In this document: positions 58,576 to 63,850 of the stretch, in pieces
How the letters are laid out: each line of letters starts with the position of its first letter
How positions within the stretch are numbered: the first letter of the stretch is position 1
Source: an uncultured Treponema sp.
GTDB taxonomy: Bacteria > Spirochaetota > Spirochaetia > Treponematales > Treponemataceae
Length of the DNA stretch: 64,000 nucleotides
Direction of reading: 5' to 3'
Assembly (NCBI GenBank): GCA_934667505.1
Contig: CAKULY010000005.1
Coordinates: 42,434-106,433 of the forward strand
Made by a program: the position numbers and the translations under genes
Notes under the pieces: generated by a model
Database searches by the model: none
Told to the model about the DNA's origin: nothing
What the model saw: only the letters and a program-made list of their open reading frames with translations

Positions 58576-59577
58576 ATGAAAAAAATTATTAGCTCTATAA
58601 TTTCACTGGGAATTCTTATCCTAGCGTCTTGCAGTTCAAAAAATATAAAATCAAACACAATAGCGGTTTTTGCGCCAGGAATTCTTGCCGACAGTCCTAT
58701 TTACGAAATGCTCGCAAATGGCGCAAAAGAAGCAGTTGATGAATACAACGCTCTTCCAACCACAACAGAGCCTAAATGTATTGAAATCATTGAAGCTGGC
58801 ACAAACCAGGCTGAATGGGGAGCGAAACTTACCGCCTTATGCGCAGAAGGCAAATATGAAGTAATTATCACTTCTAATCCTTCTATGCCTGAACTTGCAG
58901 AACCACTTGCAAAAAATTTTCCAAATCAGAAATTTATAATCCTCGATGCAAAAAGCGAAGGAAACAAAAATATTGCAACCGTTTGCTACAATCAGCATGA
59001 ACAAGGATTTTTAACAGGCTACATCGCAGGACTTATGACAAAAACGAAAAAAATAGGCTTGATTGCAGCGCAAGAGTACCCTGTAATGAACAACACTATT
59101 CTTCCAGCCTACATTGAAGGCGCAAAAACGGTTGATACCGGCATTACAATAGATTTTAGAATCGTAGGAAACTGGTACAGCGCCGCAAAAGGGGAAGAGC
59201 TTGCAGATGCAATGAGCAAAAACCTGGTTGACATAATTCTTCCAATTTGCGGAGGCGCCGCTCAAGGAGTTGTTTCCAGCGCAAAAGCGAATGGCACAAT
59301 GCTTGCGTGGTTCGATAGCAATGAATTTTCAAGAGCTCCTGACAATGTTATTGCGTGCACAGTTATAAATCAAAAGCTTATGGCAAAACAGCTGACTATT
59401 CAATTTCTTGAAGGAAAAACTGAATGGGGAACGGCAAAGATGGTTGGTCTAAAGGAAGGTTTTATAGAATTTTTGCAAGATGACCCTATTTACAAAAAGA
59501 ATGTTCCTGAATCAATTCAAAAAAAGATGGAAAACATTATAAATCAACTTAAAACAGGCACTTTAGTTTTGGAATAA
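58576..59577 (+). CDS. BMP-family substrate-binding lipoprotein (nucleoside importer)
   Basis: 333 residues with lipobox LILASC (Cys near 20). The mature part is a type I periplasmic-binding fold of the Bmp/PnrA family: VFAPGILADSPIYEMLANGAKEA, TSNPSMPELAEPLAKNFPNQKFIILDA, YNQHEQGFLTGYIAGLMTKTKKIG and PICGGAAQGVVSSAK. PnrA of T. pallidum binds purine nucleosides, and the same role is likely here. The ATPase and two permease genes follow in the same direction. TAAGAGG precedes the ATG. Confidence 0.9.
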   Translation: MKKIISSIISLGILILASCSSKNIKSNTIAVFAPGILADSPIYEMLANGAKEAVDEYNALPTTTEPKCIEIIEAGTNQAEWGAKLTALCAEGKYEVIITSNPSMPELAEPLAKNFPNQKFIILDAKSEGNKNIATVCYNQHEQGFLTGYIAGLMTKTKKIGLIAAQEYPVMNNTILPAYIEGAKTVDTGITIDFRIVGNWYSAAKGEELADAMSKNLVDIILPICGGAAQGVVSSAKANGTMLAWFDSNEFSRAPDNVIACTVINQKLMAKQLTIQFLEGKTEWGTAKMVGLKEGFIEFLQDDPIYKKNVPESIQKKMENIINQLKTGTLVLE

Positions 59578-59605
59578 ATAGGATAATTCAAAAGAAAGTA
59601 AAAAA

Positions 59606-60997
59606 ATGGAACTTTTACTTAAAAATATAAAAAAAATATATCCATTAAAGACCGTTCTTAAAGACGTGAATATGGATTTTATTTCAGGCAAAGTTTATGC
59701 TTTATTAGGAGAAAACGGGGCTGGCAAATCCACGCTTGCGGATATAATTTGCGGCGCAAAGCAGTATTCCGCTGGAAAAATTCTTATAAATGGAAAAGAA
59801 GTTTTTTTTAAGAATCAAAAAGAAAGCTTAAAACACGGAATAGTCTGCGTAAAGCAACGACCTTTGCTTGCAGAAGAATTGTCGATAAAGGAAAATATTC
59901 TTTTAAGAACGGATTTTCCAATCCTTTTTCATTCAAACAAAAAAATAGAAGCAAAAATCAACGAAATTTGCAAAACTTGGAACATAAAACTAAATTTAAA
60001 TGCGAAAATTTGGCAATGCAGCGGGGCTATCCGTTTTTACACATCATTTATTTCGGCAATAATTCTAAATCCAAGTTTTTTAATTCTTGACGAGCCGGCT
60101 GCTCTTCTTTCAAAGGAAGAAAGAAATGAACTTTTTAAAAATCTTAAAAAATTCGTTTTAGAAAATCCTGGAAAAACTGTTTTAATGATTACGCACAATC
60201 TTGCGGACGCAAAAACTTATGCAGATAAAATTATTTTTATGCAAGAAGGTCAGATTGTAAGCAAAACGAGCGCAAATCACGAAACAACGCCTGCAATTTC
60301 TGAAAAAAAAGTTGAAGAAAAACCGGATTTTATAGAGTTCAAGAACATAAATGCGCATCCGGAAAACCGCCCCGCTCTTTTTAATGTGAACATAAAAGCG
60401 GAATACGGAAGCATTACTTTAATTCAAGGGCAAAAAGGCAGCGGAATTGTTACCTTGGAAAATATTATTACAGGAATGGAAACGCAGGAATGTAGCGGAA
60501 CATTTTGCGTACACAAAAAAGGAAAGACATTTTCTACTAAAATAGACTCTTCACATTTTTCAACAAAAGTCCTGCGCTTTAAGCAAAAAACAGCAATAAT
60601 CAGTTCTGACAGAAATTACAGGGCATCTAATCCTAATTTAAGTGTAAAACAGCTTCTTTGCGCAATGTACAACGGAAAAGACTGCGACAAATACGCTCAA
60701 AAATTAATAGATAAGGCAGGAATCAACATAACCGTAAACGAATCTGTTTCTAATCTTTCGGGCGGAATGTTGCAGCAATTGATTTTGCACAGAGAATTAG
60801 ATTCCAAGCCGGAATTTTTTATAATGTGCGAACCGCTTCAAGGGCTAGATTCAAAAGCTGCCCCTCAAATGTGCAGTATGATAAAGGAATATGCTCAAAA
60901 GGGAAATGTTGTAATAATTCTAACAGTTTCGGATTTTCCAAAAGAACTGTGCAACAAAGTTTACTTTTTGCAAGGAGGTCTTTGCTATGAATCTTAA
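59606..60997 (+). CDS. Duplicated ABC ATPase of the nucleoside importer
   Basis: 463 residues, two nucleotide-binding domains in tandem as in RbsA/NupA-type importers. Domain 1 has an intact Walker A (GENGAGKSTL) and Walker B (FLILDEPA), but its signature is decayed (QCSGAIRFY). Domain 2 has a decayed Walker A (GQKGSGIVTLE, lacking the Lys) and Walker B FFIMCEP, but an intact signature (LSGGMLQQ). Thus only one composite ATP site looks active. It is shorter than typical (~500). It starts 28 nt after the lipoprotein gene and overlaps the permease by 11 nt. Confidence 0.9.
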   Translation: MELLLKNIKKIYPLKTVLKDVNMDFISGKVYALLGENGAGKSTLADIICGAKQYSAGKILINGKEVFFKNQKESLKHGIVCVKQRPLLAEELSIKENILLRTDFPILFHSNKKIEAKINEICKTWNIKLNLNAKIWQCSGAIRFYTSFISAIILNPSFLILDEPAALLSKEERNELFKNLKKFVLENPGKTVLMITHNLADAKTYADKIIFMQEGQIVSKTSANHETTPAISEKKVEEKPDFIEFKNINAHPENRPALFNVNIKAEYGSITLIQGQKGSGIVTLENIITGMETQECSGTFCVHKKGKTFSTKIDSSHFSTKVLRFKQKTAIISSDRNYRASNPNLSVKQLLCAMYNGKDCDKYAQKLIDKAGINITVNESVSNLSGGMLQQLILHRELDSKPEFFIMCEPLQGLDSKAAPQMCSMIKEYAQKGNVVIILTVSDFPKELCNKVYFLQGGLCYES

Positions 60998-61994
60998 AAA
61001 AGGTCTGAAAACTCTGCTGTTTTCTTCTGCAACGGTTATTATAGGTTCTGTTATAAGCGCAATTTTTGCAACTTTAATGGCAAAAAAAACTAGTATAACG
61101 CCTGTTTCTTTTTTTACAGGCGTATTTTCCTCGAAATATTATATAGGAGCAATCTTAAACACAGCTCTTCTTTTAACGGTTTCTGGTCTTGGCGCAGGGG
61201 CATCCTTGATAAACGGAGAATTTAATCTTGGAGGAGAAGGTCAAATCTACGCAGGCGGCTTTGTTTGCGCGATTGTGGCTTGTTCGATGAAAAATTGCAT
61301 TACTTTTTTTGCCGTAGCAACAGCTGCAATCTGCGCAATGGGAATTTCAGCCTTGATAGCCTTGTTCTCTGCACTTTTAAAGTATTACAAAAACACAAGC
61401 ATTCTTTTAACTTCATTTCTTATTTCCAGCGCGATAATTCCAGTAATAAATTCTTTGATTGCAGGACCTTTCAAAAATTCAGGAAATCTTTTAGCAACGG
61501 AATTTATTCCTCAGAGCATGAGAATTGCACAAATCATGCCGCCTTCCCCGTTGAACGCGGCTATTATTCTAGTTCCTATGCTATGCGCTTGCAGCTGGTA
61601 CATAATAAATAAAACTGCCTTTGGAAGAAAAATCGTAATAAACGGAATTGCCCCAGAGTTTGGAAAATACTGCGGCTACAATCAAAAAGCAATGCTGTTT
61701 TCTTCCATGGCTATATCAGGAGCATTGCACGGACTAACCGGATTTCTTGCGGTGTTTGGAACATACTTCACCTGCCATTCAGGATTTTACGCTGGCATGG
61801 GCTGGAACGCGCTGACAACGGCACTTACAGCATCCTCAAATCCTATTGCAATAATACCAAGCGCGCTCACACTTTCATGGATTTTTACGAGCGCAGACAA
61901 AGTCACACTGACAGGAAACTTTGGATTCAACTTCAGCGCGCTAGTTCAAGGAATCATGCTTTTTTGTATTTCAATTAAAAGGTTAAAAAAATGA
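60987..61994 (+). CDS. Nucleoside ABC importer permease 1
   Basis: 335 residues with about 9-10 transmembrane helices of the BPD_transp_2 (ribose/nucleoside) type. The characteristic NGEFNLGGEGQIYAGGF block and GINGIAPEFGKYCGYN-like segment (VINGIAPEFGKYCGYNQKA) near the coupling helix are present. It overlaps the ATPase gene by 11 nt and the second permease by 4 nt. An AGGAGG ribosome binding site lies within the ATPase coding region. Confidence 0.9.
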   Translation: MNLKKGLKTLLFSSATVIIGSVISAIFATLMAKKTSITPVSFFTGVFSSKYYIGAILNTALLLTVSGLGAGASLINGEFNLGGEGQIYAGGFVCAIVACSMKNCITFFAVATAAICAMGISALIALFSALLKYYKNTSILLTSFLISSAIIPVINSLIAGPFKNSGNLLATEFIPQSMRIAQIMPPSPLNAAIILVPMLCACSWYIINKTAFGRKIVINGIAPEFGKYCGYNQKAMLFSSMAISGALHGLTGFLAVFGTYFTCHSGFYAGMGWNALTTALTASSNPIAIIPSALTLSWIFTSADKVTLTGNFGFNFSALVQGIMLFCISIKRLKK

Positions 61995-62818
61995 TTGCCA
62001 ACATAATTCAAAACATTATTCCACTGTATCTTATTTCTGTAGGCGCTCTTTTTAGTGAATATGCAGGTCAAATGGCTCTTTTTTTGGACTCTGCAATAAA
62101 CGCTTCCGCCTTTACTTTTTTTGCAGTAACAGAACTTTCCTCAAATGCAATCTTGGGAATTTTTGCGGCTCTAACAATTTGCACAATTTTTATAGGACTT
62201 TTTGCGTTCGCTTGCGAAAAATTAAAAGCGAATCCATTTATAGCGGGACTTGCCGCTGGTCTTTTTACAGAAGGACTTATAACTTTTGTTTCTGTAAAAC
62301 TTTTTGGAACAAGAGGCGTTCTTACTTCTGAATTATTCAATTTTTCAAGAGCAAAAGCGACTTTAATATATTGCGCTGTTTTTTTAATAATTTGTTTAGC
62401 CTTGTCGATATTTTTAAAATGCACAAAGCAAGGTCTTTGCTTTAGAATCACTGGCACTAACCCTGACGTTCTAGAATCAAAGGGGATTTCTTCTTCCTTT
62501 TACCGAATAAATGCCTGGATGATAAGCGCATTCTGTGCAAGCTGTGCAGGCTGCGCTTATGCCGCACGAATTTCAAGCTTTGTTCCAAATATTTCAAGCG
62601 GACGCGGCTGGCTAGCCTTAGTAATAGTCTTTCTTGGCAAAAAAGATTTAATAAAAATGATTCCTGCCGTTTTGATTTTTAGCACAACTGAATACCTTGC
62701 TTCAAATGTTCAAAATGTAATTCCGTCCATTCCAAATGCAGTCTTAATAATTCTACCCTATTTAGCCGCGCTGCTGCTAATAATCTTTCAACCTAAAAGA
62801 AAATCAATAAAAAAATAA
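61991..62818 (+). CDS. Nucleoside ABC importer permease 2
   Basis: 275 residues with about eight transmembrane helices, the second BPD_transp_2 subunit. The cytoplasmic coupling segment LCFRITGTNPDVLESKGISSSFYRI and the stretch NISSGRGWLALVIVFLGKKD are typical. ATG overlaps the stop of permease 1 (ATGA arrangement). The four genes 58576-62818 form one complete importer. Confidence 0.9.
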   Translation: MIANIIQNIIPLYLISVGALFSEYAGQMALFLDSAINASAFTFFAVTELSSNAILGIFAALTICTIFIGLFAFACEKLKANPFIAGLAAGLFTEGLITFVSVKLFGTRGVLTSELFNFSRAKATLIYCAVFLIICLALSIFLKCTKQGLCFRITGTNPDVLESKGISSSFYRINAWMISAFCASCAGCAYAARISSFVPNISSGRGWLALVIVFLGKKDLIKMIPAVLIFSTTEYLASNVQNVIPSIPNAVLIILPYLAALLLIIFQPKRKSIKK

Positions 62819-62846
62819 AAAATCTTCAATTTCCCCTGCTTTTGGC

Positions 62847-62878
62847 TTGACAAGGTCGGGGGGGGGGGACGGTACACT
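62847..62878 (+). promoter_or_regulatory. Promoter with an 11-G tract in its spacer (putative phase-variable switch)
   Basis: TTGACA (62847-62852) and TACACT (62873-62878) are separated by 20 bp that include 11 consecutive G (62858-62868). The consensus spacer is 17 bp, which would correspond to 8 G. Confidence 0.75.
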
Positions 62879-62888
62879 GAATCCACTG

Positions 62889-62928
62889 GAGAGTGCTTGA
62901 ACTAGCAAAAAAATCTATAAGCACTTTC
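62889..62928 (+). promoter_or_regulatory. 5' leader hairpin of the poly-G-controlled gene
   Basis: GAGAGTGCTT (62889-62898) pairs with AAGCACTTTC (62919-62928) over 10 bp with one G-U pair. The ribosome binding site GGGGG (62930-62934) follows at once and the ATG is at 62942. Confidence 0.45.
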
Positions 62929-62941
62929 AGGGGGATTTATT

Positions 62942-63850
62942 ATGAAACTACTAAAAAAAACAACACTTTTAGTGGCAGCCGCGCTTACACTTGGATTCAT
63001 TTCTTGTAAGCAAGATTCAGGTTCGACTTCTTCTAACGAACTTCCGGGAACAATTGGTGGAAAAGGCAACAAAAACGACACCTTTTATGGAAAGACATTC
63101 TATGACAAGGCTGACAAAAACAGCGCATACACTTGCTATGAATTTTCAGAAGAAGGAACTGTTACTGTAAAAGCAAAAATGAGTTCGGAAGATTTTACAC
63201 CTGTGACAGAATTAAAGTATTCTATCAGCGATGATGGCGAAAATGTTTATATGAAAGTTTTAAAAGCACCAACCCCAGAGGCAGACCCAAGACTACTATC
63301 TGAAGAAGAGTTTATTACATATGCTAAACAAATGTTAGCAAGTCAACTTAAAAAACTTCGTGAAGAGAAACCTGCAGCTATAGATTCAGTTTGCTATGGA
63401 TTAGACATTCCAAAAACTTCTTCTGATAATGAAATTATTGAAGCTCAAATAAATAACTACAAAAAAACATTTTCATCAACATATACTTTTACGCTAAAAA
63501 CAGCAGATTCCCCAAAAGGCACTTTAACAGAAGTTATAACTTGGAAAAATGAACTTTCAAAATTCATGACAATGAGCGGCTCTTATGATAGTGAAAGCGA
63601 TGAAGATTATGATTTTTATTTATCTACTGCAATGGACGGATTAATTGGTTGTTATGAAACATCTAAAGGAGATTCTATTAATATTGCCTATTCTAAAACT
63701 AAAAACAAATTCATCAATACTAAAGACGGCTCTGAAATACCTTACACAATAAGCGACGACGGAACAAAGATTACAATCACTGCAGACGACAAAGAAATGG
63801 TTGCAGTCTACAATCCTCAAGTAATTGAATTGTTTGAAGCAGCTGAATAA
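62942..63850 (+). CDS. Lipoprotein of unknown function under a poly-G promoter
   Basis: 302 residues. A lipoprotein signal (LTLGFISC, Cys near 22) is followed by a Ser/Gly/Asn-rich linker. The body contains repeated-looking blocks: YTCYEFSEEGTVTVKAKM and YSISDDGENVYMKV early, and IGCYETSKGDSINIAYSKTKNKF and YTISDDGTKITITADDKE late. These suggest two lipocalin- or beta-sandwich-like modules that measure 'energy/signal' strands, but no named family is recognised. Surface or periplasmic exposure and on/off switching of its promoter suggest an adaptive or antigenic role. Confidence 0.7.
   Translation: MKLLKKTTLLVAAALTLGFISCKQDSGSTSSNELPGTIGGKGNKNDTFYGKTFYDKADKNSAYTCYEFSEEGTVTVKAKMSSEDFTPVTELKYSISDDGENVYMKVLKAPTPEADPRLLSEEEFITYAKQMLASQLKKLREEKPAAIDSVCYGLDIPKTSSDNEIIEAQINNYKKTFSSTYTFTLKTADSPKGTLTEVITWKNELSKFMTMSGSYDSESDEDYDFYLSTAMDGLIGCYETSKGDSINIAYSKTKNKFINTKDGSEIPYTISDDGTKITITADDKEMVAVYNPQVIELFEAAE

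Follow-up and report, generated by a model that had tools for sequence, protein, structure and literature searches.

The most probable reading of the promoter described here, which we hold at a probability of roughly three in four (0.76), is that of a putative sigma-70 promoter in which a slippery run of eleven G residues (G11) determines the distance between -35 and -10, so that the exported lipoprotein gene behind it would be subject to promoter-spacer phase variation. The window (the whole 64-kb stretch of DNA that was analysed) carries the following features at and ahead of this promoter.

58576..61994, + strand: remaining upstream gene group, encoding a Bmp/PnrA-like binding protein, an ABC ATPase and the first permease (ORFs, domain matches)
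61991..62818, + strand: upstream ABC permease, BPD_transp_2 (ORF, Pfam match)
62847..62852, + strand: -35 element TTGACA, read from the sequence
62853..62872, + strand: 20-bp promoter spacer AGGTC-G11-ACGG, read from the sequence
62858..62868, + strand: poly-G tract G11, the proposed slippage site (0.00025 G runs this long expected)
62873..62878, + strand: -10 element TACACT, matching TATAAT at 4/6 positions, from the sequence
62885, + strand: inferred transcription start, 7 bp past the -10, from sigma-70 geometry
62886..62931, + strand: predicted 5'UTR hairpin (folding; -13.9 kcal/mol, z -2.5), filling most of the 5'UTR and reaching the first Shine-Dalgarno bases
62929..62934, + strand: Shine-Dalgarno-like AGGGGG, identified by eye
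62942..63850, + strand: predicted exported lipoprotein gene, 302 aa, lipobox FISC (ORF, signal heuristic)

The spacer is made up of AGGTC (62853-62857), G11 (62858-62868) and ACGG (62869-62872), and 63 bp separate the -10 from the ATG of the lipoprotein gene at 62942. The sequence-only reading had described TTGACA, G11, TACACT and a spacer of 20 bp, all of which stand, but it had also called TACACT a consensus element, which is untenable given the 4/6 match. The tract is the sole run of at least six G or C in the window, all others being of five or fewer, and under a first-order model with the window's own dinucleotide frequencies the number of runs of at least 11 expected by chance is 0.00025 for G and 0.0004 for C, about 0.0007 in total. 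There are 24 TTGACA sites in the window (13 on the + strand and 11 on the - strand) and only that at 62847 has such a tract, while a scan of the + strand between 62661 and 63194 for promoter-like sites (at least 9/12 hexamer matches and a 16-18 bp spacer) found none.

Poly-G promoters have been described in T. pallidum and in N. meningitidis. The accessible part of one account (PMC7864442) places the poly-G tract of T. pallidum tp0126 between the -35 and -10, with best transcription at a total spacing of 17 bp; that of tprL reaches into the -10 region, with the -35/-10 spacing unaltered, and tprE/G/J and tprL have poly-G upstream of exported-protein genes and length-dependent transcription. 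For porA of N. meningitidis, the accessible part of another (PMC3639595) gives full, 2-fold lower and 13-fold lower surface PorA as the tract goes from 11G to 10G to 9G. As far as these extracts go, the window promoter shares a poly-G tract in the -35/-10 spacer with tp0126 (an OmpW homologue) and with porA, whose product is a surface protein, and shares a poly-G tract upstream of an exported-protein gene with tprE/G/J and tprL. However, tp0126 is an unrelated gene of another species in which both tract length and expression have been studied, whereas the window is known from sequence alone; porA is an unrelated gene of an unrelated bacterium in which activity is highest with the longest of the three tracts, while the 20 bp of the window are predicted to be too long. 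By anatomy, the window promoter would be grouped with tp0126 and porA. Four features that characterise their type are found here: a homopolymer lies between the -35 and -10 and its length sets the spacing, the tract is long enough at G11 and beyond chance, a change of a few units would on geometry carry the 20-bp spacer across the functional range, and the product controlled is, by a heuristic lipoprotein signal in a 302-aa ORF, exported. The earlier analogy with the tpr genes gives way to these better parallels, because the tprL tract, in the extract of PMC7864442, overlaps the -10 without a change of spacing, so that to the extent that tprL is representative the geometry is another one; that of the window lies within the spacer, 4 bp before the -10.

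The range of spacers in use in these bacteria was taken from 133 plain TTGACA-N10-26-TATAAT matches in four of seven genomes (G045, G048, G060 and G193), a few of which are themselves poly-G promoters. Spacers of 16, 17 and 18 bp made up 24, 33 and 32 of them (89/133), those of 19 and 20 bp only 2 and 4, and the 20-bp spacer of the window is outside this common 16-18 bp range. It is predicted, and geometrically plausible, that in the sequenced state the promoter is weak or off. Homopolymer tracts of the length of G11 slip. Slipped-strand mispairing at replication would add or remove G residues, the spacer would thereby enter or leave the 16-18 bp range mostly used by RNA polymerase in these bacteria, and lipoprotein expression would become stochastic within a clone, either graded or on/off. 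The benefit would probably lie in surface-antigen diversification in the face of host immunity, phage or competitors. Slippage at G11, its effect on transcription and the surface exposure of the lipoprotein are what we infer from this arrangement.

The layout recurs in other genomes. The pattern TTGACA-N3-9-G8-N2-10-TANNNT was present in 3 of 11 relatives, namely Treponema socranskii and MAGs from a water-buffalo rumen and a water-deer omasum. Across Treponemataceae 90 of 274 genomes had it, with 209 matches in all, some sites being counted more than once through alternative -10s, against a single match of the reversed control, and the richest genomes (G052 and G101) had nine matches each. A draw of 392 genomes from the phylum contained 53 with the pattern and yielded two matches of its reverse; as 38 of 80 genomes inside the family had it compared with 15 of 312 taken as outside, the layout is concentrated in Treponemataceae and yet occurs beyond them too. 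This recurrence bears on the very improbable alternative that the tract, or its length, is an error of assembly or sequencing. Some sequencing platforms do typically err at poly-G, but here the tract is internal, flanked by a -35 and a -10, and the same layout is found in other genomes, including G045 and G052, in each of which the tracts are on a single contig about as long as a genome. A search of the open-licence literature returned, among the matches listed, no title on promoters of this poly-G kind in any treponeme beyond the T. pallidum group, the other titles dealing with Neisseria, Campylobacter and unrelated matters.

A set of 62 sites was studied further, being a non-random subset of the 209 matches made up of three from the search of 11 relatives, 29 from the family-wide search, 29 more, and one (L061) found by homology. 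Some of them, for example L072, may be chance matches. At several sites in other Treponemataceae (L059, L061, L084, L124, L156 and L171) TTGACA, poly-G and a TANNNT-type -10 are followed, as in the window, by an exported-protein gene, that of L061 being frame-broken. Related sites differ from the window in that the tract mostly abuts the -10, ending no more than 1 nt from it in 50 of 62, whereas in the window the 4 bp of ACGG intervene. That position, with the -35 and -10 on either side, fits control by spacing. It tells against the rather improbable explanation that expression is mainly set by the G tract in some other way (as a regulator site, a G-rich DNA structure or through promoter melting) or by the 5'UTR hairpin, although tprL, in the extract of PMC7864442, does show length dependence with no change of spacing, and melting is discussed in that connection. 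The hairpin itself has a z of -2.5 when folded from the inferred start, and of -4.4 when the flank before that start is included. A general role for such hairpins found no support when tested: 53 related UTRs folded to a mean z of -0.40 on a rough home-made shuffle, two of them lying below -2, which argues against the hairpin as the controlling element.

Simple heuristics were used to call genes, to assign signal-peptide classes and to choose the -10, and on these the first gene downstream of the 62 sites was a predicted lipoprotein in 37 cases, another signal-peptide or membrane protein in 14 and neither in 10, with no ORF at the remaining site (L111). Ordinary promoters passed through the same pipeline (TTGACA-N16-18-TATAAT, one from each of 30 genomes, reduced to 29 when L144 was dropped as itself poly-G) preceded one lipoprotein and six other exported or membrane proteins; Fisher tests of poly-G against ordinary promoters gave p = 1.3e-7 for lipoproteins and 1.9e-7 for exported proteins. 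The background among ORFs of at least 100 aa was 57 lipoproteins of 742 in L002-L054 and four of 56 in the window. Kinship does not explain the enrichment in exported proteins, because the 61 downstream proteins fall into 53 clusters, of which 32 are lipoproteins and 12 have a signal peptide or transmembrane segment. At L162 and L163 a poly-G spacer promoter (G9 and G8, respectively) is followed closely by an inner-membrane gene that by eye resembles YidC/Oxa1, an unusual target for a poly-G switch.

It may also be supposed that the promoter is a fixed and weak one, in which the tract is tolerated and expression is constitutive, partly by read-through from the ABC-transporter genes. The last permease gene is on the same strand as the lipoprotein gene and its stop at 62818 is 28 bp ahead of the -35; since a scan of 62818-62942 found no terminator-like site, read-through is possible. 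The closest relatives of this permease in named genomes are from treponemes, at about 50% identity, and two further proteins reach 79-80%; the window would accordingly come from a Treponema-like species that has no close relative among named genomes. Poly-G is, moreover, not confined to promoters. Forty tracts of G9 or longer were classified in four treponeme genomes (11/11 from G045, 13/13 from G048, 9/11 from G013, where two known spacer sites were omitted, and the first 7 of 42 from G052); 15 lay in a promoter-like spacer (at least 9/12 hexamer matches), five in a weak one and 20 elsewhere, although at some of these 20 the scoring overlooked a TTGAC-type box or a TAGTTAT-type follower. With 20 of 40 there, poly-G accumulates outside recognisable promoter spacers as well. 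At L177, L179, L180, L186, L204-L206 and L208 (G045 and G048) what comes after the tract is a common sequence resembling TTATGGAAGA/TATGGAAGA or CTATAAAAAA, a second recurrent tract context. Against a fixed weak promoter are the recurrence of the spacer arrangement before exported genes, which is far above controls, and the fact that tract lengths differ between matched promoters, so that this explanation, though the strongest of the alternatives, is unlikely.

Ten of 13 pairs of matched promoters differed in tract length, two related pairs were equal (L172/L173 and L113/L115) and one (L097/L109) consisted of unrelated genes. L057, whose genome (G005) is that of Treponema socranskii subsp. paredis, carries a G9 tract against G13 in L084, and the two have identities of 198/207 in the 200 bp upstream, 108/111 in the 120 bp downstream and 196/212 in the protein. 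Within one genome, L156 (G14) and L157 (G11) are identical at 168/192 positions upstream and 116/120 downstream. L158, L159 and L124 have G12, G10 and G11, with 118-119/120 downstream positions identical and just 125/177 and 120/182 upstream. Differences of one G were found in L162/L163, L164/L165, L160/L161 and L166/L167. Such differences demonstrate mutability but not switching within a population, since the choice of pairs in part favoured differing tracts, homopolymer lengths are prone to error in assemblies, and species differ anyway. The spacers of the 62 poly-G promoters range from 15 to 25 bp with a mode of 19 bp (19/62), five being of 15 bp, 24 of 16-18 bp and 33 of at least 19 bp. 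A mix of spacers within and outside the usual range is what switches caught at random would show, but the spread is equally compatible with a G-rich spacer raising the optimum, from which it could have come. The phase-variation reading, first put forward from this locus by itself, finds good support in comparison: 90 of 274 genomes with the layout, the enrichment in exported genes, the length differences between matched promoters and the scatter of spacers all speak for it.

The product of the controlled gene had been taken for an exported lipoprotein, and the signal heuristic agrees, scoring its N-terminus, MKLLKKTTLLVAAALTLGFISC-K, as that of a lipoprotein. A protein search limited to relatives with exact words in common with the query returned seven proteins, the query included, from 1707 scored candidates; the cluster to which the lipoprotein belongs represents 16 contigs. 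Alignment of five relatives of similar length revealed a mosaic, in which the ends are conserved and the variable blocks pair differently from one relative to the next: P0002 is 95% identical to the lipoprotein in alignment columns 86-180 and 32% in columns 209-255, and for P0003 the figures for the same two blocks are 55% and 75%. The pattern resembles that of an exposed antigen whose variable blocks have been shuffled, and the proteins may be either alleles or paralogues. No relative of the lipoprotein turned up when genome and viral contigs were scanned, a plasmid search gave no match, and a profile search over the 274 Treponemataceae genomes found eight weak homologues; with only these, orthologous promoters could not be aligned. 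The sole homologue of the eight with a G8 or longer tract behind TTGACA is L061, a distant, frame-broken relative (E 1.6e-5) whose promoter, TTGACA-G8-TACAAT, has the same 20-bp spacing as that of the window; another, L062, offers just 62 nt of upstream sequence. The predicted structure has a mean pLDDT of 62 and a fold search with it gave no match at E <= 0.001, the first being a lipocalin-type lipoprotein at E 0.035, and for these two reasons no fold is assigned. A Pfam match to the sporozoite Surface_antigen family, at 15.1 bits below a cut-off of 25.2, was discarded.

Taken alone, the window locus is another case of an already known promoter-spacer type, and it is the wider repertoire, including Cas12a, that is of more interest. 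There is an even chance that Treponemataceae other than T. pallidum, many gut and rumen species probably among them, possess a multi-locus repertoire of poly-G spacer promoters, each of which switches stochastically and independently of the rest. The genes so controlled would be those of lipoproteins and other exported proteins and, in three genomes, that of the CRISPR effector Cas12a; a clone would thereby diversify its phage immunity as well as its surface, and the window gene would be one member. In G101, G102 and G243, TTGACA-G9-TATAAT with a 19-bp spacer lies 134, 104 and 106 nt, respectively, before the ATG of Cas12a.

L168:258-4376, - strand: Cas12a ORF of G101 (PADLOC, 1811 bits)
L169:559-4524, - strand: Cas12a ORF of G102 (PADLOC, 1314 bits)
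L170 near 4523, - strand: Cas12a ORF of G243 (L170, L106), from the shared N-terminus only

Cas12a behind a poly-G spacer is a candidate for phase-variable CRISPR immunity, and a slippery promoter in that position would mean that such immunity is stochastic. Among the matches listed for the open-licence literature no title concerned phase-variable Cas12a. The accessible part of a review (PMC11868660) asks whether only pathogens have phase variation at multiple loci, a question on which a family-wide repertoire would bear if confirmed by reads. Because the pattern occurs in 90 of 274 Treponemataceae genomes, with nine matches in each of the two richest, this question can be tested with existing reads. 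On the - strand of a viral contig (L001:7126-7156), TTGACA-AAATGTATC-G10-TACACT stands ahead of a short gene that by eye looks like a regulator, and is possibly a slippery phage switch.
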